Assembly: GCF_004349065.1 (NCBI RefSeq)
Contig: NZ_SMKZ01000010.1
Location: forward strand, 1 to 64,000
Length of the DNA stretch: 64,000 bases
Direction: 5' to 3'
From: Jiangella asiatica
GTDB lineage: Bacteria; Actinomycetota; Actinomycetes; Jiangellales; Jiangellaceae
Below, piece by piece: positions 2,258-10,701 of the stretch. Made by a program: the position numbers and the translations under genes. Below the pieces are notes generated by a model. It was not told the DNA's origin. It saw only the letters and a list, made by a program, of their open reading frames with translations, and ran no database searches. The number at the start of each line of letters is the position of its first letter. Position 1 is the stretch's first letter.

Positions 2258-3307
2258 ATGGCTGACAATCCCGTTCGCAGCGGTACCGCCCACCACGTGA
2301 CTCGCCGGTCGATGTTGGCCGGAGCGGTAGCGGGCGCGGCATTCCCGGCGGTCGCCACCACCGCCGCGTCGGTGCCGACAGCGACGGCAGGCACGGTACC
2401 GAGGACGTCGGGGACCGCCCGTGCCGGCGGGACGACGCACCAGGTCACGATCTACGCCGAGGCGCTCCCGAACGGTCTCTACGGCTACGGCCTGGCCCCG
2501 GGCGAGGCCACCGTCCCGGGCCCGATCCTCGAGATGATCGAGGGCGACACGATGGAGATCACGCTGGTCAACACGACCGACCAGCGCCTGTCCATCCACC
2601 CGCACGGTGTCGACTACGACGTCCACTCCGACGGCAGCCCGCTCAACGCGTCGGCCACCGAGGCCGGTCAGACGCGCACGTACGTGTGGCACACCCGCGA
2701 GAAGGCACCGTCGACGGGACGGATGTGGCTGCCGGGCAGCGCCGGCTACTGGCACTACCACGATCACGCCCTGGGCTCGGACCACGGCACCGACGGCATC
2801 GCAAAGGGCCTCTACGGCGCGCTCATCGTCCGCCGCAAGGGCGACGTGCTGCCGGACCGCCAGTTCACGGTCGTGTTCAACGACATGACGATCAACAACC
2901 TGACCGCGCCGGACACGCCGATTTTCGACTGCCGGCTGGGCGAGCGCGTGGAGTTCATCGCCATCGGCCACGGCAACATGGAGCACACCTTCCACCTGCA
3001 CGCCCACCGTTGGGCCGACAACCGCACCGGCATGCTGGAGGGTCCCAACGATCCCAGCCCGGCGGTCGACAACAAGGACCTCAACCCCGGCAGCTCGTTC
3101 GGGTTCCAGGTGCTCGCCGGCGAGGGCGTCGGGCCCGGTGCGTGGATGTACCACTGCCACGTGCAGTTCCACTCCGACCCCATGTCGGGCATCTTCCTGG
3201 TCCGCAACGAGGACGGCACCATCCCCGACCACGCGCAGGAGGCGATCGACTACTTCCACGGCCACCACCACGGCGGGCACGACGAGCACGAGGGGCACGG
3301 CGGCTAG
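2258..3307 (+). CDS. Two-domain (small) laccase, Tat-exported multicopper oxidase
   Basis: 349 residues, the length of Streptomyces small laccases. A twin-arginine signal (TRRSMLAGAVAGAAFPAVA) predicts folded export. All four copper-binding blocks are present in order: HPHG, GYWHYHDH, HTFHLHAHRW and HCHVQFHSDPMSG, with Met as probable axial T1 residue. The two-domain type works as a homotrimer with the trinuclear site at subunit interfaces, oxidising phenols while reducing oxygen to water. The tail is His-rich (HGHHHGGHDEHEGHGG), a possible metal-loading segment. The ATG at 2258 follows GGAGA at 2249-2253; upstream in-frame codons lack a signal peptide and are less likely. Two further exported redox-related proteins lie immediately downstream on the same strand. 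Confidence 0.93.
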   Translation: MADNPVRSGTAHHVTRRSMLAGAVAGAAFPAVATTAASVPTATAGTVPRTSGTARAGGTTHQVTIYAEALPNGLYGYGLAPGEATVPGPILEMIEGDTMEITLVNTTDQRLSIHPHGVDYDVHSDGSPLNASATEAGQTRTYVWHTREKAPSTGRMWLPGSAGYWHYHDHALGSDHGTDGIAKGLYGALIVRRKGDVLPDRQFTVVFNDMTINNLTAPDTPIFDCRLGERVEFIAIGHGNMEHTFHLHAHRWADNRTGMLEGPNDPSPAVDNKDLNPGSSFGFQVLAGEGVGPGAWMYHCHVQFHSDPMSGIFLVRNEDGTIPDHAQEAIDYFHGHHHGGHDEHEGHGG

Positions 3308-3398
3308 GCCACCGCACTTTTTCGACGAACGACCACACGACCACAGCAGGGCCGAGAACGCATAGCCACGGGGCGCACCATCGATCGAAGGAGCAACG

Positions 3399-6300
3399 AT
3401 GAGACGCAGGAGCCTCGAACGTCCGGACGGCAGGCTACCGGCACGGTCGGCACCCTGGCGCCGCACGGCGGTTCTCGCGGGTAGTGCGGCGCTGGCGTTG
3501 AGCCTGGTCGCGCTACCGGCCCAGGGTCAGCCGGAGCCGTCGCCGAGCCCCACGAGCCCGGCCCCGCTGGTCGAGGATGCCCCGAAGGCCTCTGACGGGT
3601 CGGCACCCAGTGCCTCCCCCGCCGCCCGGCAGGCACTCGCCGCCGCCAAGGCGGCTACCGCCGCCGACAACGGCGTGAACGTGCTGGTGTTCCACGGTGC
3701 GGCCGACGCGCAGGACGACCCGGTGGCCGAGGCGACGCAGGCGATCCAGGAGCTCGGCGCGGAGCACGGCTTCGCCGTCGAGGTCTCCAGTGACCCCGCG
3801 GTGTTCTCCGCGCAGAGCCTGGCGCAGTACCGCGGCGTCGTCTTCCTGTCCGCGCAGGGCACCGAGCTGACGCCGAGCCAGGAGGACGCCCTGGAGGCCT
3901 ACCTCGAGGACGGCGGCGGCTTCCTCGGTGTTGGCGACGCGGCCCGCGCGCAGGAGCGGTCGGAGTGGTTCACCGGCCTGATCGGCACTCGGCCGGTCGG
4001 CGCGCTGCCGGACCCGCTCGACGTCTCCTCCGTGAGCGCCAGCGCCAACAACCCGCCGAACGAGGACGCGCCCAAGCTCGTCGACGGCGACGTCAACACG
4101 AAGTGGCTGGCCTTCGAGCCGACGGCATGGATCGTCGTGCAGCTGACCGAGGCAGCCGCGGTGAACCAGTACGCGTTGTCGTCGGCCAACGACGCCGCCG
4201 GCCGCGACCCGCAGGACTGGACGCTGCAGGGGTCCACGGACGGGCAGACGTGGACTGACCTGGACCAGCGCACCGGCGAGGACTTCCCGGACCGGTTCCA
4301 GACCAAGGACTACACGTTCGAGAACACCCAGGCCTACCAGTACTACCGCCTGGACATCACCAGGAACGCTGGCGACGGCCTCACCCAGCTCGCCGAGCTG
4401 CAGTTCTTCGCCGGCGACGGCACGGTCGAGCCGCCGCCGATCGTCGTGCAGGAGGCGACGGTCAGCATCGTGGACCGTCAGCACCCGGCCAACGACGGCC
4501 TCCCGCTGACGCTGGCCCGCGAGGACCGGTGGATCAACTGGGCGCCCAACCCGGTCGGCACGGTCCACACGGTCGCGCAGGTGCAGGAGCACACGTACGA
4601 GCCGGGCGAGGGATCCAACGGCGCGTTCCACCCGGTCTCCTGGTGCCGTGACTACGACGGCGGCCGCTCGTTCTACACCGGCATGGGCGGTACCGCCGCC
4701 AGCTGGTCCGAGGACGCGCTGCGCAGCCATGTCGCGGGCGCCATCCAGTGGGCTACCGGCATGGTCCGCGGCGACTGCCAGGCGACCATCGGCTCGAACT
4801 ACGAGATCGAGCGGCTGACCGAGGTGAACCAGGACGGCCAGCTCGACCAGATCGGTGAGCCGCACGGCCTGGACATCGCGCCCGACGGCACCGTCTTCTA
4901 CATCGGCAAGGCCGCCTGCGCGACCGGCCCGGTCGTCGACTGGTCCGACCCGAATGTGGGACTGGGCTGCGGCACGATCCACCAGTGGGACCCGGAGACC
5001 CAGGAGGTCAAGCACCTGACCACGCTGGACGTGTTCGGCAACCGGGGTTCCGGCGGTGAGCTGGTCAAGACCGAGGAGGGCCTGGTCGGCATCGCGCTCG
5101 ATCCGTCCTTCGCCGAGAACGGCTGGATGTACGTCTACTGGATGCCGTATGAGTCGATCGACAAGGAGCGCCGAGTCGGCGAGCGGACGGTCTCGCGGTT
5201 CACCTACGACGCCGAGGCCGACGAGATCGACCTCGACAGCCGGGTTGACCTGCTCTCCTGGGAGACCCAGATCCACAGCTGCTGCCACGCCGGCGGCGGC
5301 ATGGACTTCGACTCCGAGGGCAACCTCTACATCGGCGTCGGCGACAGCAACTCCTCGCAGGGCTCGGGCGGCTACTCCGGCAACAACTGGACGCAGGAGT
5401 TCGCCGGCATCTCGTTCCAGGACGCCCGCCGCACGTCAGGCAACACGAACGACCTGAACGGCAAGATCCTGCGAATCCACCCGGAGGACGACGGGACGTA
5501 CACCATCCCGGACGACAACCTCTTCACCGGTGAGGAGGAGGGCGGCGGCAAGACCCGCCCGGAGATCTACGTGATGGGTGTCCGCAACATCTCCACGCTC
5601 TATGTGGACCCGGAGACCGATTACCTGCACGCGGCGTGGGTCGGCCCGGACGCTGGCAACCCGGACCCGGAGCTGGGCCCGGCGAAGTACGAGACGGCGA
5701 CCATCATCACGTCGGCGGGCAACCAGGGCTGGCCGTACTGCATGGGCAACCGGCAGCCGTACCGGGATCGCAGCAACGAGGACGCGGCGATCCTGACCGG
5801 CTGGTACGAGTGCGACGGCAACCTGGTGAACACGTCGCCGCGCAACACCGGCCTGGTCGACATCCCGGACGCCCGGGACAACATGATCTGGTACTCGCCC
5901 AGCGGTGGGAACCCGGTCTTCCCGGACCGTGGCGACGGCATCCCGACATACGACAGCGACGACGCGACGTACACCTTCCCGTACCTGCGGGGCGGCTGCC
6001 AGGCGATCATGACCGGCCCGACCTACCGGGAAGCGCTGGTCGACCCGGACAGCGACGTGGCCTGGCCGTCGTACTGGGAAGGCAAGTGGATCATCGGCGA
6101 CGAGTGCACGCCGACCAACCGCGTCGCAGTGACCGTCGACCCGGAGGGCATCGACTCGCAGAGCCCGCCGCTGTTCGCCGAGGACCTGCGATCGCTCATC
6201 CCGGCCGGCGGCAACGACGACCAGCTGCAGAGCTGGATGATGACGTCGCGGTTCGGCCCGGACGGTGCGCTGTACATGTCCGACTACAGCGGCGGCTTCT

Positions 6301-7496
6301 TCAGTCTCGTCGACAACCAGAAGCTCATCCGCGTCGTCTACAACGGCGGCCCGGCGACGCCGATGGCGGCCGCCTCGGTGACGGCCGTCCAGAACAAGCC
6401 GCTGACCATGGCCTTCACCGGCGCTCGGTCCGGCGGCGTGTCCTACGCGTGGGACTTCGGCGACGGAGCCACGTCGGACGAGGCCAACCCGCGGCACATT
6501 TACGACGCGGTGGGTACCTACACCGCGACGCTGACGGTGACCTACGCCGACGGCGAGACGATGAGCACCGAGGTCGAGGTCGTCGTCGGCTGCACGGTTC
6601 CCGACGACCGGGACACCGTCTGGCTCCGTGACACCGACACCGGGGTCGCCAACCATGAGGCCGGCGGCGGCTGCACCGTCAACGACCTCATCGACGACGA
6701 GAGCAGCTGGCCCAACCACGGTCAGTTCGTCCGACACGTGACCGACGTCGCCAACGATCTCGTCGCCGACGGCGTCCTCACCGCCCGCGAACGCACGACG
6801 CTGAACCGGCTGGCCGCACAATCCGAGATCGGCACCGCGGGCGACACCGGATACGAGGCCCTCTTCGACGGGACCGCCGAGTCCCTGCAGGGGTGGACCC
6901 AGGCTCCGGGCGGCTTCTTCGAGCTCCAGGACGACGGCACGATCATCAGCCGCGGCGGGCTCGGGATGCTGTGGTACTCGGCGCGAGAGTTCGCCGACTT
7001 CTCGGTGAAGCTCCAGTTCCGGGACGTGTCGCCGGGCACGGTCCGGGCGAACAGCGGTGTGTTCACCCGGTTCCCGAGCCCGAACCAGCCGCTGGAGGAA
7101 CGGCCGGAGTGCGGCCGGACCGGCGCCGCCGCCTCGTCACCGGCGTGGGTCGCGATCTACTGCGGGCAGGAGATCCAGATCTACGACGGCGAAACCGGCG
7201 AGCCGCAGAAGACCGGGTCGGTCTACAACTTCGACCCGATCGGGCTCGACGACGCCGGTGCGACGCCGAAGGGCGAGTGGAACGACTACGAGATCCGGGT
7301 GGTCGGACAGCAGTACACGATCATCCGCAACGGCGTCGTGATCAACGAGTTCGAGAACGCACCCGGCATCACGTCGTCGCGTCCCGGTGACCCGCCGACG
7401 GATCTGCGCCAGTTCCTCAGCGGATACATCGGGTTGCAGAACCACGGCAACAACGACCAGATCGAGTTCCGCAACATCCGAGTTCGAGAGCTGTAG
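3399..7496 (+). CDS. Giant exported ThuA / F5-8C / glucose-sorbosone dehydrogenase / PKD / DUF1080 protein
   Basis: 1365 residues with an N-terminal signal peptide (about 1-45, RRTAVLAGSAALALSLVALP). Domain order: ThuA-like fold (about 90-190), a discoidin/F5-8 type C carbohydrate-binding module (about 207-337), the remainder of ThuA (about 354-449), a PQQ-type glucose/sorbosone dehydrogenase beta-propeller (about 470-982; EGLVGIALDPSF, SCCHAGGGMDFD), a PKD domain (about 987-1064; YAWDFGDG), a helical module with CTVNDLIDD and FVRHVTDVANDLV (about 1067-1147), and DUF1080, the 3-keto-disaccharide hydrolase/concanavalin-like family (about 1150-1365; ALFDGT...GWTQ). The set suggests extracellular oxidation of sugars to keto-sugars followed by cleavage; this is inference from the families. 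Start ATG has AAGGAG just upstream. It lies 91 bp after the laccase and ends before a strong hairpin. Confidence 0.88.
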   Translation: MRRRSLERPDGRLPARSAPWRRTAVLAGSAALALSLVALPAQGQPEPSPSPTSPAPLVEDAPKASDGSAPSASPAARQALAAAKAATAADNGVNVLVFHGAADAQDDPVAEATQAIQELGAEHGFAVEVSSDPAVFSAQSLAQYRGVVFLSAQGTELTPSQEDALEAYLEDGGGFLGVGDAARAQERSEWFTGLIGTRPVGALPDPLDVSSVSASANNPPNEDAPKLVDGDVNTKWLAFEPTAWIVVQLTEAAAVNQYALSSANDAAGRDPQDWTLQGSTDGQTWTDLDQRTGEDFPDRFQTKDYTFENTQAYQYYRLDITRNAGDGLTQLAELQFFAGDGTVEPPPIVVQEATVSIVDRQHPANDGLPLTLAREDRWINWAPNPVGTVHTVAQVQEHTYEPGEGSNGAFHPVSWCRDYDGGRSFYTGMGGTAASWSEDALRSHVAGAIQWATGMVRGDCQATIGSNYEIERLTEVNQDGQLDQIGEPHGLDIAPDGTVFYIGKAACATGPVVDWSDPNVGLGCGTIHQWDPETQEVKHLTTLDVFGNRGSGGELVKTEEGLVGIALDPSFAENGWMYVYWMPYESIDKERRVGERTVSRFTYDAEADEIDLDSRVDLLSWETQIHSCCHAGGGMDFDSEGNLYIGVGDSNSSQGSGGYSGNNWTQEFAGISFQDARRTSGNTNDLNGKILRIHPEDDGTYTIPDDNLFTGEEEGGGKTRPEIYVMGVRNISTLYVDPETDYLHAAWVGPDAGNPDPELGPAKYETATIITSAGNQGWPYCMGNRQPYRDRSNEDAAILTGWYECDGNLVNTSPRNTGLVDIPDARDNMIWYSPSGGNPVFPDRGDGIPTYDSDDATYTFPYLRGGCQAIMTGPTYREALVDPDSDVAWPSYWEGKWIIGDECTPTNRVAVTVDPEGIDSQSPPLFAEDLRSLIPAGGNDDQLQSWMMTSRFGPDGALYMSDYSGGFFSLVDNQKLIRVVYNGGPATPMAAASVTAVQNKPLTMAFTGARSGGVSYAWDFGDGATSDEANPRHIYDAVGTYTATLTVTYADGETMSTEVEVVVGCTVPDDRDTVWLRDTDTGVANHEAGGGCTVNDLIDDESSWPNHGQFVRHVTDVANDLVADGVLTARERTTLNRLAAQSEIGTAGDTGYEALFDGTAESLQGWTQAPGGFFELQDDGTIISRGGLGMLWYSAREFADFSVKLQFRDVSPGTVRANSGVFTRFPSPNQPLEERPECGRTGAAASSPAWVAIYCGQEIQIYDGETGEPQKTGSVYNFDPIGLDDAGATPKGEWNDYEIRVVGQQYTIIRNGVVINEFENAPGITSSRPGDPPTDLRQFLSGYIGLQNHGNNDQIEFRNIRVREL

Positions 7497-7517
7497 CCCC
7501 GGCCGCCGGTCGGTGCG

Positions 7518-7550
7518 GGTGCGGCCACGAGACCTTCTCGTGGCCGCACC
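7518..7550 (+). terminator. Perfect 15-bp stem hairpin after the ThuA/GSDH gene
   Basis: GGTGCGGCCACGAGA (7518-7532) pairs exactly with TCTCGTGGCCGCACC (7536-7550) around a 3-nt loop, 21 bp after the stop codon. No U-tract follows, as is common for actinobacterial terminators. Confidence 0.8.
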
Positions 7551-7602
7551 CCACCGGCCGGCCCGGCCGCCGGGGTGCGCCCCGGGTTCACGAGAGGTGC
7601 AC

Positions 7603-10600
7603 ATGCTGATGTTTCGACGACTCCTGGCGGCCCTGACCGGCCGCCGCCTCGGCGCGTCCCCGGGACGTCGCAAGCCCAGTTCGCAAACGGTCCTCGTGTC
7701 GGTGCTGGCGACGGCGCTCACGGCGCTGTGGCTGGTGCCGACGGCGACCGCTCTGCGCGGCGAGGCCGAGCCGGCACCGTCGCCGGCGGCGGCCGCGGAC
7801 CAGGTGCTGACCTGGACCGCGAACGACAGCGTGACCGACTACGCATCATTCCCGACGACGGCGACCGCCGGGCCGACGACCATCGTGTTCGAGAACAGCC
7901 AGGCCACCGGGAACACCACCGGCATGCCGCACACGCTGACCTTCGACACGTCGGACCCGAACTACAACCAGGACGTTACGCTGGACCTCGTCGCCAACCC
8001 GTTCGACGGCAACGGCGGGCGGCACGAGGCCCAGGTGACGCTCTCCCCCGGTACCTACCGCTACTACTGCGCGTTCCCCGGCCACGGCGAGATGACTGGC
8101 CTGCTGGTGGTCACCGGCGGTGGCGAGGACACCACGCCGCCGGAGGTCTCGGCGACGGTCAGCGGCGACCAGAACGTGGACGGCGACTACGTCGGCTCGG
8201 CCACGGTCACCGTGACGGCCACCGATGCCGGCTCGGGTGTCGAAACCGTCGAGTACGAAATCCGCGACACAGGCTTCCAGCCCTACACCGGGCCGGTGAC
8301 GGTGGACGAGCCGGGTGACTACTCGGTGCAGTACCGGGCGACGGACGCGGCCGGCAACACCTCCGAGGTCGGGTCGGTGAGCTTCACGGTCGTCGAAGCC
8401 GAACCCGACGACACGACACCACCGGACACCGCCGCGTCGGTGGGCGGCGAGCAGGACGACGAGGGCAACTACGTCGGCTCGGCGACGGTCACGGTGACGG
8501 CGACGGACGCTGGGTCCGGCGTCGCGTCGATCGAGTACAACCTCGACGGCGCCGGCTTCACCGCGTACACCGCACCCGTCGTGGTCGACTCGCTGGGCGC
8601 ACACACCGTCGAGTACCGGGCGACCGACAACGCCGGCAACGTCGCGCCGGTCGGGTCGGTGACCTTCACCGTCGTGGAGCCGGAGCCAGACGACACGACG
8701 CCGCCTTCCGTCGATGCCGCTGTCGCGGGTGACCAGGACGAGGACGGCAACTACATCGGCTCCGCCACCGTGACGGTGACCGCGTCCGACGCTGGGTCCG
8801 GGGTGGCCTCGATCGAGTACAACCTGGACGGCGCCGGCTTTGTGGCGTACAGCGCGCCCGTGGTCGTCGAAGAGCTGGGCGCACACACCGTCGAGTACCG
8901 GGCCACTGACAACTCCGGCAACGTCTCCCCCGCCGGGTCGGTGACCTTCACCGTCGTCGAGCCCGAACCCGACGACACGACCGCACCGGAGGTCTCCGCG
9001 TCGGTGGGCGGCGAGCAGGACGAGGACGGCAACTACATCACCTCCGCCACCGTCACGATCACCGCGACGGACGCACAGTCCGGCGTCGAGTCCATCGCCT
9101 ACGCACTCGACGACGGCTCGTTCGTGCCGTACACCGAGCCGGTCGTGGTGGACGAGCTGGGCGCGCACACGGTGCAGTACCGGGCGACGGACAACGCCGG
9201 CAACACCTCCGAGGTCGGCTCGGTGACCTTCACCGTCGTCGAGCCGGAGCCCGACGACACGACGCCGCCTTCCGTCGATGCCGCCGTCGCCGGTGACCAG
9301 GACGAGGACGGCAACTACATCACCTCCGCCACCGTCACGGTGACAGCGTCCGACGCTGGGTCCGGCGTCGCGTCGATCGAGTACAACCTCGACGGCGCCG
9401 GCTTCACCGCGTACACCGCACCCGTCGTGGTCGACTCGCTGGGCGCACACACCGTCGAGTACCGGGCCACTGACAACTCCGGCAACGTCTCCCCCACTGG
9501 GTCGGTGACCTTCACCGTCGTCGAGCCCGAACCCGACGACACGACCGCACCCGCCGTGACAGTGAGCGTCGCAGGCGACCAGGACGAGGACGGCAACTAC
9601 ATCACCTCCGCCACGGTCACGATCACCGCGTCCGACGCTGGGTCCGGCGTCGCGTCCATCGCCTACGCACTCGACGACGGTTCGTTCGTGCCGTACACCG
9701 AGCCGGTGGTCGTCTCGGAGCTGGGCGAACACACGCTCCAGTACCGCGCCACCGACAACGCCGGCAACGCGTCGGAGGTCGCGACCGTCGCCTTCAGCGT
9801 CGTCGAGCCGGAGCCCGACGACACGACGGCACCCACCGTCGATGCCGCCGTCGCCGGTGACCAGGACGAGGACGGCAACTACATCACCTCCGCCACCGTC
9901 ACGGTGACAGCGTCCGACGCTGGGTCCGGCGTCGCGTCGATCGAGTACAACCTCGACGGCGCCGGCTTCACCGCGTACACCGCACCCGTCGTGGTCGACT
10001 CGCTGGGCGCACACACCGTCGAGTACCGGGCCACTGACAACTCCGGCAACGTCTCCCCCGCCGGGTCGGTGACCTTCACCGTCGTCGAGCCCGAACCCGA
10101 CGACACGACCCCACCGGAGGTCTCCGCGTCGGTGGGCGGCGAGCAGGACGAGAACGGCGACTACGTCGACTCGGCCACGGTGACCGTGACCGCGTCGGAC
10201 ACCGGATCGGGAGTGGCGAGCGTCACCTACGCCGTCGACGACGGTGCGTTCGCCCCGTACACCGAGCCGGTCGTGGTCTCGGACCTGGGCGAGCACACGG
10301 TCCAGTACCGGGCCACCGACAACGCCGGCAACACCTCCGAGGTCGGCTCGGTGAGGTTCACGATCGTCGAACGGGACGGCGATGCCTGCCCCGACTCCGA
10401 CACCCGCGCCACCGTGGTCGTCGGCGGCATCGACTCCACGGTGCCGAACGTCGACACCGGCGACGGCTGCACGATCAACGACCTGATCGACGACGACGGC
10501 GCCTGGCCCAGCCACGGCGCCTTCGTCCGCCATGTCACCGAGGTCGCGAATCAGCTGGTGACCGACGGCGTCATCACGACCCGGGACCGCGGCATGATCA

Positions 10601-10701
10601 CCCGCGCGGCCGCCGCCTCCGACGTCGGCCGGGAACCCGCACCGGAGCCGTCGGACGAGCACTCGGTCGAGGAGGCGCTGGCGCGGCACCACCACCACTG
10701 A
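7603..10701 (+). CDS. Exported cupredoxin with eight tandem Ig-like (OmpL47-type) repeats
   Basis: 1032 residues from ATG 7603, chosen because GAGAGGTG lies just upstream and the signal peptide begins here. After the signal (about 1-52) comes a plastocyanin-like domain (about 66-174) with HTLTF and YYCAFPGHGEM, giving the His-Cys-His-Met ligands of a type 1 copper site. Eight repeats of 94 residues follow (about 176-925), each with a SATVTVTA strand, an (S/Q)SGV turn, and a YRATD(N/A).(G)N ending, as in OmpL47-type beta-sandwich domains. The C-terminal part (926-1032) contains CTINDLIDDDGAWPSHG and FVRHVTEVANQLV, a module shared with the preceding gene, and the protein ends in four His. It could be a stalked electron carrier or copper holder for the laccase or dehydrogenase; that role is inference. 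Confidence 0.85.
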   Translation: MLMFRRLLAALTGRRLGASPGRRKPSSQTVLVSVLATALTALWLVPTATALRGEAEPAPSPAAAADQVLTWTANDSVTDYASFPTTATAGPTTIVFENSQATGNTTGMPHTLTFDTSDPNYNQDVTLDLVANPFDGNGGRHEAQVTLSPGTYRYYCAFPGHGEMTGLLVVTGGGEDTTPPEVSATVSGDQNVDGDYVGSATVTVTATDAGSGVETVEYEIRDTGFQPYTGPVTVDEPGDYSVQYRATDAAGNTSEVGSVSFTVVEAEPDDTTPPDTAASVGGEQDDEGNYVGSATVTVTATDAGSGVASIEYNLDGAGFTAYTAPVVVDSLGAHTVEYRATDNAGNVAPVGSVTFTVVEPEPDDTTPPSVDAAVAGDQDEDGNYIGSATVTVTASDAGSGVASIEYNLDGAGFVAYSAPVVVEELGAHTVEYRATDNSGNVSPAGSVTFTVVEPEPDDTTAPEVSASVGGEQDEDGNYITSATVTITATDAQSGVESIAYALDDGSFVPYTEPVVVDELGAHTVQYRATDNAGNTSEVGSVTFTVVEPEPDDTTPPSVDAAVAGDQDEDGNYITSATVTVTASDAGSGVASIEYNLDGAGFTAYTAPVVVDSLGAHTVEYRATDNSGNVSPTGSVTFTVVEPEPDDTTAPAVTVSVAGDQDEDGNYITSATVTITASDAGSGVASIAYALDDGSFVPYTEPVVVSELGEHTLQYRATDNAGNASEVATVAFSVVEPEPDDTTAPTVDAAVAGDQDEDGNYITSATVTVTASDAGSGVASIEYNLDGAGFTAYTAPVVVDSLGAHTVEYRATDNSGNVSPAGSVTFTVVEPEPDDTTPPEVSASVGGEQDENGDYVDSATVTVTASDTGSGVASVTYAVDDGAFAPYTEPVVVSDLGEHTVQYRATDNAGNTSEVGSVRFTIVERDGDACPDSDTRATVVVGGIDSTVPNVDTGDGCTINDLIDDDGAWPSHGAFVRHVTEVANQLVTDGVITTRDRGMITRAAAASDVGREPAPEPSDEHSVEEALARHHHH
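8129..10375 (+). repeat. Eight 282-bp in-frame tandem repeats
   Basis: Repeat units begin near 8129, 8407, 8689, 8971, 9253, 9535, 9817 and 10099; all but the first are exactly 282 bp apart. The units at about 9272-9545 and 9836-10109 are almost identical at nucleotide level although separated by a different unit. Units at about 8500-8620, 9340-9460 and 9904-10024 also share long exact runs, showing recent duplication or gene conversion in two-unit steps of 564 bp. Confidence 0.9.

Follow-up and report, generated by a model that had tools for sequence, protein, structure and literature searches.

This analysis concerns three consecutive genes in the first 64,000 nucleotides of contig NZ_SMKZ01000010.1 of Jiangella asiatica (assembly GCF_004349065.1), a stretch referred to here as the window. 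All three lie on the + strand. They encode a small laccase, a multidomain protein ("the giant") that contains a GSDH domain, and a cupredoxin borne on a stalk (Table 1). Pfam and PDB matches and + strand open reading frames (ORFs) bear out the sequence-only reading of this DNA, which had described three exported proteins of these families in a row. For the third gene that reading gave the correct end, while the start it proposed, at 7387, overlaps the giant gene; the likely start is ATG 7603. The GC content at third codon positions (GC3) is 0.90-0.94, and the intergenic gaps measure 91 bp (laccase/giant) and 106 bp (giant/cupredoxin gene). The gene caller used was rough, taking the longest ORFs with high GC3, and gene borders are therefore approximate. 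The host genome is a 7.03-Mb actinobacterial one, with the trio on contig C11, and the nearest named relatives by laccase are Jiangella species (74-76% identity).

Table 1. Features of the laccase-giant-cupredoxin locus (positions in the window; MFE, minimum free energy)
Feature	Position	Strand	Basis
Two-domain small laccase (SLAC type), with twin-Arg-like signal RRSM and His-rich C-terminal tail	2258..3307	+	Pfam, PDB matches
Exported giant, 1365 residues: ThuA split by F5/8C, GSDH propeller, PKD, CTM, DUF1080	3399..7496	+	Pfam over cut-off; ORF
ThuA in two halves, F5/8C inserted (4032-4400)	3600..4754	+	PF06283 185.6 bits, two stretches; PF00754 residues 212-334
GSDH propeller domain	4761..6368	+	AlphaFold model pLDDT 89.7, pTM 0.93; structure comparison
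PKD domain	6360..6575	+	PF18911 57.2 bits, residues 988-1059
CTM in giant, 84-85 residues, no Pfam family	6588..6842	+	CTM profile E 4.9e-41
DUF1080 (3-keto-disaccharide hydrolase family)	6849..7487	+	PF06439 119.7 bits, cut-off 26.8
Hairpin between giant and cupredoxin genes	7497..7574	+	MFE -89.9 kcal/mol for 7494-7605, z -8.6 vs 200 dinucleotide shuffles
Exported cupredoxin on OmpL47-type stalk, C-terminal CTM, HHHH end, 1032 residues	7603..10701	+	Pfam, NF047446, CTM profile
Type 1 copper (plastocyanin-like) domain, ligand residues H110, C156, H161, M164	7783..8127	+	Copper-bind 22.4 bits, cut-off 21.2
OmpL47-type repeats (stalk), borders approximate	8128..10380	+	NF047446 684.8 bits, 8 stretches
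Second CTM copy, in cupredoxin protein	10384..10635	+	CTM profile E 8.3e-40

The three genes are inherited together. In a class sample of 296 genomes from 114 genera, searched with E-value limits of 1e-40 (laccase), 1e-12 (cupredoxin domain) and 1e-120 (GSDH part) and scoring only the best candidates from a first look, the laccase occurs in 41 genomes, and exactly these also have the cupredoxin; the GSDH part is found in 40 of them, and at these limits all three are missing from the other 255 genomes. Each search is positive in 8 of the 114 genera. The lowest-scoring laccase match reaches 1.8e-100 and the lowest-scoring GSDH match 6e-180, leaving wide gaps to the limits. In the sole carrier lacking the GSDH part (G016), the cupredoxin gene sits at a contig end. 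In 39 of the 40 complete carriers, the three genes share a contig and fall inside ~8 kb; the exception (G164) has its cupredoxin gene on another contig. Within the genus g4, one genome (G200) carries all three genes and four (G102, G183, G209, and G217) carry none, an all-or-none pattern from which the trio seems to have been gained or lost as a set. Co-conservation across genomes had been put forward in the sequence-only reading as the check to make, and the check returned near-perfect co-occurrence and linkage.

The layout was compared in 80 loci, the best of 585 relatives by likeness to the window laccase; layout counts are biased to this clade, and the class sample serves as an independent check. 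The giant is present in 79 of these loci and the cupredoxin in 79, and order and strand are the same in 77. They come from Jiangella, Micromonospora, Actinoplanes, Saccharothrix, Kribbella, Promicromonospora, and others. One of the three deviating loci reaches a contig end (L048), one has the order giant-cupredoxin-laccase (L092), and in the third, from Saccharomonospora saliphila (L034), the giant is absent at the locus and present elsewhere in the genome with 75% identity. That the three genes are unrelated neighbors is rejected by the co-occurrence in the 296 genomes and by the 77 conserved layouts. On genomic grounds, the three proteins are very likely partners. In 41 of the 80 loci, a further protein of ~324 residues with a signal-like start is encoded close by, usually 3' of the cupredoxin gene; the one member scanned (L026:16702-17676) has no Pfam match, and the gene is absent from the window.

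The laccase belongs to the SLAC family, possessing both its two cupredoxin-type domains (Pfam Cu-oxidase_2 and Cu-oxidase_3, over cut-off) and its conserved copper-ligand motif residues. Its best PDB match is 3t9w (1.5e-126), followed by other two-domain laccases, SLAC itself (3cg8) matching at 2.4e-111; 50 distinct PDB sequences of this family, mutants included, are found at E up to 1e-50. ATG 2258 is most likely the start, because relatives align from residue 1, and the RRSM that follows is presumably a twin-Arg-like motif. The His-x-His and HCH motif residues, taken to be the copper ligands, are identical in 92-93 of 93 sequences; four loci without the GSDH (L105, L109, L114, and L115) were left out of the residue and matrix counts given here. 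In the cupredoxin protein, the H, C, H, and M residues of a type 1 copper site lie inside the plastocyanin-like domain and are identical in 92 of 92 sequences. In the cupredoxin family, this set forms an electron-transfer site. The His-rich tails that the sequence-only reading saw on both proteins are indeed there in the window. They are not conserved as a pair, at least five His in the last 30 residues being found in 36 of 92 laccase homologues and in 1 of 86 cupredoxin homologues, and they were rejected as a common signature.

In the giant, the best ThuA stretch (PF06283) covers residues 345-452, and the first half was located via alignments with paralogues. Its GSDH domain scores 79.1 bits in Pfam (cut-off 25), and the predicted structure has the propeller fold of the soluble sugar dehydrogenase family, superposing on 2ism (VIA Z 35.2, root-mean-square deviation (rmsd) 2.2 over 325 residues) and on 3das with bound pyrroloquinoline quinone (PQQ) (Z 32.5, rmsd 2.7 over 325). 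A His of the catalytic type is kept in 92 of 92 sequences, as is a Cys-Cys pair directly before it (giant residues 628-630, model residues 174-176).

The CTM module is common to the giant and the cupredoxin protein. It is found in nine copies in the genome, at the two places in the window and on contigs C37, C38, C57, C62, C68, C71, and at C11:69699; five copies are borne by GSDH proteins and one by the cupredoxin protein, and a beta-helix protein also possesses the module. Two Cys are invariant across 60 aligned copies, and the structure predicted for it, with high confidence, is a beta hairpin with helices (pLDDT 93.0). It has no Pfam match over cut-off and no PDB match at E up to 0.001, and the best structural match (VIA Z 5.0, rmsd 3.3 over 59 residues) gives no evidence of kinship. 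Neither dockerin nor cohesin was detected in the three proteins (Pfam, E up to 0.001) or in the two CTM copies (E up to 1); at the sequence level, the hallmark of a cellulosome-type assembly is thus absent, and CTM was rejected as a dockerin or cohesin by this sequence test. It was also rejected as a FIMAH domain, PF22888 matching two other giants of the genome and not CTM (a Pfam search, not a comparison of the CTM and FIMAH profiles).

The same parts recur in other arrangements. Of the 79 loci with a giant, 78 have DUF1080 on it, and in Halopolyspora (L064) DUF1080 is encoded by a separate gene 3' of the cupredoxin gene. In the Streptomyces-type family f19, of which 7 of 18 carrier loci were fetched, the laccase gene is divergent from that of a ThuA-GSDH protein of ~850 residues, followed (overlapping or within tens of bases) by the gene of a ~740-residue protein combining cupredoxin, repeats, CTM, and DUF1080. 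DUF1080 was found on the cupredoxin protein in five of the seven (L103, L110-L113), the gene caller having missed it in L102 and L104. The L103 laccase scores 602 bits against Streptomyces coelicolor SLAC (3cg8), and in loci of the crystallised SLAC family these parts recur in a different arrangement. A plasmid of Streptomyces fungicidicus shows the f19 layout with DUF1080 on the cupredoxin protein, the genes being annotated as multicopper oxidase, ThuA domain protein, and "family 16 glycoside hydrolase". In the genus g22 (family f17), the laccase and the cupredoxin protein (L116, L105, L114) end in one common C-terminal domain of ~95-125 residues, 75-86% identical between the two over 96-127 residues, and in L116 a neighboring AP_endonuc_2 protein has the same domain. 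This hints at what is possibly a joint sorting or binding tag for one destination.

Fusions join the GSDH to electron carriers. One of the ten GSDH paralogues of the genome, L016, unites GSDH, two DUF1080, cupredoxin, and CTM in one protein, with all four copper-ligand residues readable; its cupredoxin recurs in 14 of the 296 genomes, the domain make-up being that of L016, the member scanned. Eleven plasmid records have a GSDH match, and the proteins of five, picked by hand, were scanned for domains. In three of these five, the GSDH is fused to a carrier: a cupredoxin in Haladaptatus (ThuA-GSDH-malectin-cupredoxin) and Halocatena (cupredoxin-GSDH), and a cytochrome c in Runella. Natronococcus possesses a DUF1080-GSDH protein without a carrier and, ~5 kb off, a 662-residue fusion of a cupredoxin with a multicopper oxidase that is not a small laccase; an AP_endonuc_2-DUF1080 protein is encoded between them. 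Among the five records, the S. fungicidicus plasmid has the laccase trio. The haloarchaeal plasmid loci with these fusions are L144/L147, L145, and L148. One dehydrogenase family is thus joined to varied one-electron carriers, and a carrier is joined to an oxidase, which points to a redox chain.

Ten further GSDH giants are encoded on other contigs of the genome (L009-L017), and ThuA is present in 8 of the 10 scanned. The Cys-Cys pair is present in some of these paralogues only; it is also found in L016 and three haloarchaeal relatives, and not in the Runella protein with its fused cytochrome c. Next to the paralogues lie genes for AP_endonuc_2 (L011, L012, and L017) and Gfo/Idh/MocA (L014) proteins and, as judged by eye, ABC transporter and ROK genes, a set of neighbors that fits ketosugar chemistry. 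The start of L013 and positions 6748-7335 of L017, at the ends of contigs C104 and C107, have a piece of protein sequence in common, within a DUF1080 domain, and one giant gene was thus probably split by an assembly break between these contigs. At the window locus itself, the hairpin between the giant and cupredoxin genes is very stable and has no T run. Strong folds occur at the same junction in several related loci, and in L054 this junction is only ~8 bp long. The next convincing gene 3' of the trio encodes a major facilitator superfamily (MFS) transporter, on the opposite strand.

Taken together, the trio would be a conserved secreted oxidase divided among three proteins. In the giant, the GSDH propeller would oxidise a sugar or glycoside, probably at C3. 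The electrons would be taken up singly by the type 1 copper of the cupredoxin on its stalk and delivered to the laccase type 1 copper, and O2 would be reduced to water at the trinuclear site of the laccase. The ketoglycoside product might then be hydrolysed by DUF1080, and the OmpL47 stalk and CTM modules may keep the parts assembled, on a polysaccharide or at the cell wall. The anatomy of the proteins, their intact copper-ligand residues, co-inheritance, linkage, domain reshuffling, and the GSDH, cupredoxin, and oxidase fusions are observations; from them we infer which way the electrons flow, what the substrate is, what cofactor serves (PQQ or other), and how and where the parts assemble. 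A chain running from glycoside through GSDH, cupredoxin, and laccase to O2 is regarded as the best explanation and as reasonably probable. The sequence-only reading had suggested such a chain from sugar to oxygen, and it is upheld in part: co-inheritance and linkage speak for it, and the fusions of GSDH with cupredoxin and of cupredoxin with multicopper oxidase support the carrier order, while the replacement of two PQQ-binding Arg and the scarcity of PqqE do not.

Part of the evidence on the cofactor speaks against the chain. H176, R275, N276, G295, and P296 are invariant in 59 of 59 aligned GSDH and align with the solved GSDH sequences; by the numbering and roles in sGDH, they are presumably the catalytic His, the Arg-Asn pair, and the Gly-Pro loop at PQQ/calcium. 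In sGDH, Arg406 and Arg408 hold the PQQ carboxylates. The position equivalent to Arg408 is Met in 92 of 92 sequences, and that of Arg406 lacks Arg in all 76 readable of the 92 (16 did not fit the read pattern), in a part of the alignment that is weak (2.1 bits); one of the two Arg is kept in some paralogues. PqqE is over cut-off in just 4 of the 41 cassette carriers. PqqC has no match in the J. asiatica genome, an uninformative result, as control genomes are equally without a match. PQQ can be acquired from outside the cell. The GSDH may use scavenged PQQ, another quinone, or no cofactor at all. Several genomic observations weigh against the chain as well. Two of the cupredoxin matches (G064 and G079) are weak, at 1e-13, close to the limit. 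The distance matrices of the three proteins, calculated from 91 sequences, do speak in its favor, correlating with r of 0.83, 0.73, and 0.62 (best of 500 permutations 0.28); this correlation reflects common descent as well. Second laccase copies occur without the giant, in L105 and L114 accompanied by a cupredoxin, in L109 and L115 with neither partner in the fetched stretch, and a Streptomyces plasmid laccase is found without the other two on that record. The Copper-bind score of the L016 fusion, 20.7 bits, is slightly below the Pfam cut-off of 21.2. Finally, at the limits used, no relative of the window laccase or cupredoxin is present in any of the loci of the ten GSDH paralogues in the genome, which indicates that such a GSDH can in general do without this partner.

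Three other accounts of the locus have to be set against this chain. The giant might be a non-redox glycosidase that releases phenolic aglycones for the laccase, with the cupredoxin as a helper and the GSDH cofactor lost; this is rather unlikely, even if the two missing PQQ-binding Arg agree with it. A purified ThuA-GSDH-PKD-CBM6-PKD protein of Cellulosimicrobium cellulans F16, found in a laccase-containing complex, is described as a bifunctional beta-xylosidase/beta-glucosidase in passages of PMC4562250, which report no redox test of this protein, and caffeic and ferulic acid are among the phenols that SLAC oxidises according to those of PMC3918160. Left unexplained by a glycosidase are the type 1 copper ligands identical in 92 of 92 sequences and the fusion of GSDH to cupredoxin or cytochrome c.

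A second account uses the same three parts differently, the laccase making phenoxyl radicals or quinones from lignin and the GSDH and cupredoxin re-reducing them at the expense of sugar, thereby preventing lignin repolymerisation. Radical and quinone recycling by a sugar dehydrogenase paired with a laccase is known from fungi, and the GSDH fold is akin to that of fungal AA12 enzymes (6i1q, Z 23.5, rmsd 3.0 over 326; 6jt5, Z 22.7, rmsd 3.3 over 328). The cupredoxin-oxidase fusion of Natronococcus suggests, on the contrary, that it is the oxidase itself, and not its product, that directly receives the electrons, and such recycling appears highly improbable. Little credence is likewise given to a role in copper supply, in which the cupredoxin and the His-rich tails would capture copper for loading into the laccase, with the giant linked only via a common role on plant polymers. 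The 36 His-rich laccase tails would suit it, but the H-C-H-M set is, by what is known of the family, a site for electron transfer. Copper chaperones mostly use open Met/His-rich sites, and the GSDH-cupredoxin fusions would have no explanation.

Several known systems resemble the proposed chain in part. Copper nitrite reductase is a two-domain trimeric copper enzyme that receives electrons from a cupredoxin (azurin or pseudoazurin). It is like the laccase trio in its cupredoxin donor and differs in its acceptor, nitrite, in its respiratory donor chain, and in having no sugar dehydrogenase. In AA12 pyranose dehydrogenase, represented by 6jt5, presumably the Coprinopsis enzyme with a fused cytochrome b, a GSDH-like propeller also hands electrons to a dedicated extracellular one-electron carrier; here, however, the carrier is a haem protein, no dedicated laccase serves as final acceptor, and DUF1080 and ThuA are lacking. 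Soluble aldose sugar dehydrogenases (2ism, 3a9g, and 3das) and sGDH share the fold (Z 27-35) and the His, Arg-Asn, and Gly-Pro positions, whereas the GSDH of the window does not keep the two Arg for the PQQ carboxylates and is embedded in a giant. The 3'-ketolactose route proposed for Caulobacter LacABC and DUF1080 likewise begins with an oxidation at C3 that takes place outside the cytoplasm and goes on with a DUF1080 hydrolase, but its dehydrogenase is membrane-bound, and neither laccase nor cupredoxin is mentioned in the passages available of PMC9007349. The Xyl_I complex of C. cellulans F16 unites a ThuA-GSDH giant and laccases in one secreted complex; it differs in its CBM6, with no DUF1080 listed and no cupredoxin named in the relevant passages of PMC4562250. 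SLAC (S. coelicolor SCO6712, PDB 3cg8), EpoA, and Ssl1 belong to the same laccase family, which the Streptomyces-type loci carry. Excerpts of PMC3918160, PMC5675413, and PMC8236229 treat them as stand-alone phenol oxidases, whereas the window laccase has two constant partner genes. Each part is of a known family, and the combination and its constancy were not found in the open-access literature among the matches listed.

Small laccases are well studied as structures, and several in-cell roles have been proposed for bacterial laccases (PMC5675413, in part). The co-inheritance described here names two specific partner proteins, which make the role of the laccase testable with purified proteins and gene deletions. 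A joint reading, for which the chances are put somewhat short of even, is that phenol oxidation is not the main function of bacterial small laccases: their native donor would be a dedicated secreted cupredoxin reduced by a ThuA-GSDH enzyme, and laccase, cupredoxin, and giant would form one extracellular glycoside oxidase, kept across the Actinomycetes and with fusion-built analogues in haloarchaea. If true, this would agree with the secreted complex of C. cellulans, in which laccases accompany a ThuA-GSDH glycosidase, as described in part of PMC4562250. ThuA-GSDH and DUF1080 proteins would gain a redox partner, and O2 would drive an extracellular oxidation of glycosides without nicotinamide adenine dinucleotide (NAD) or a membrane chain.

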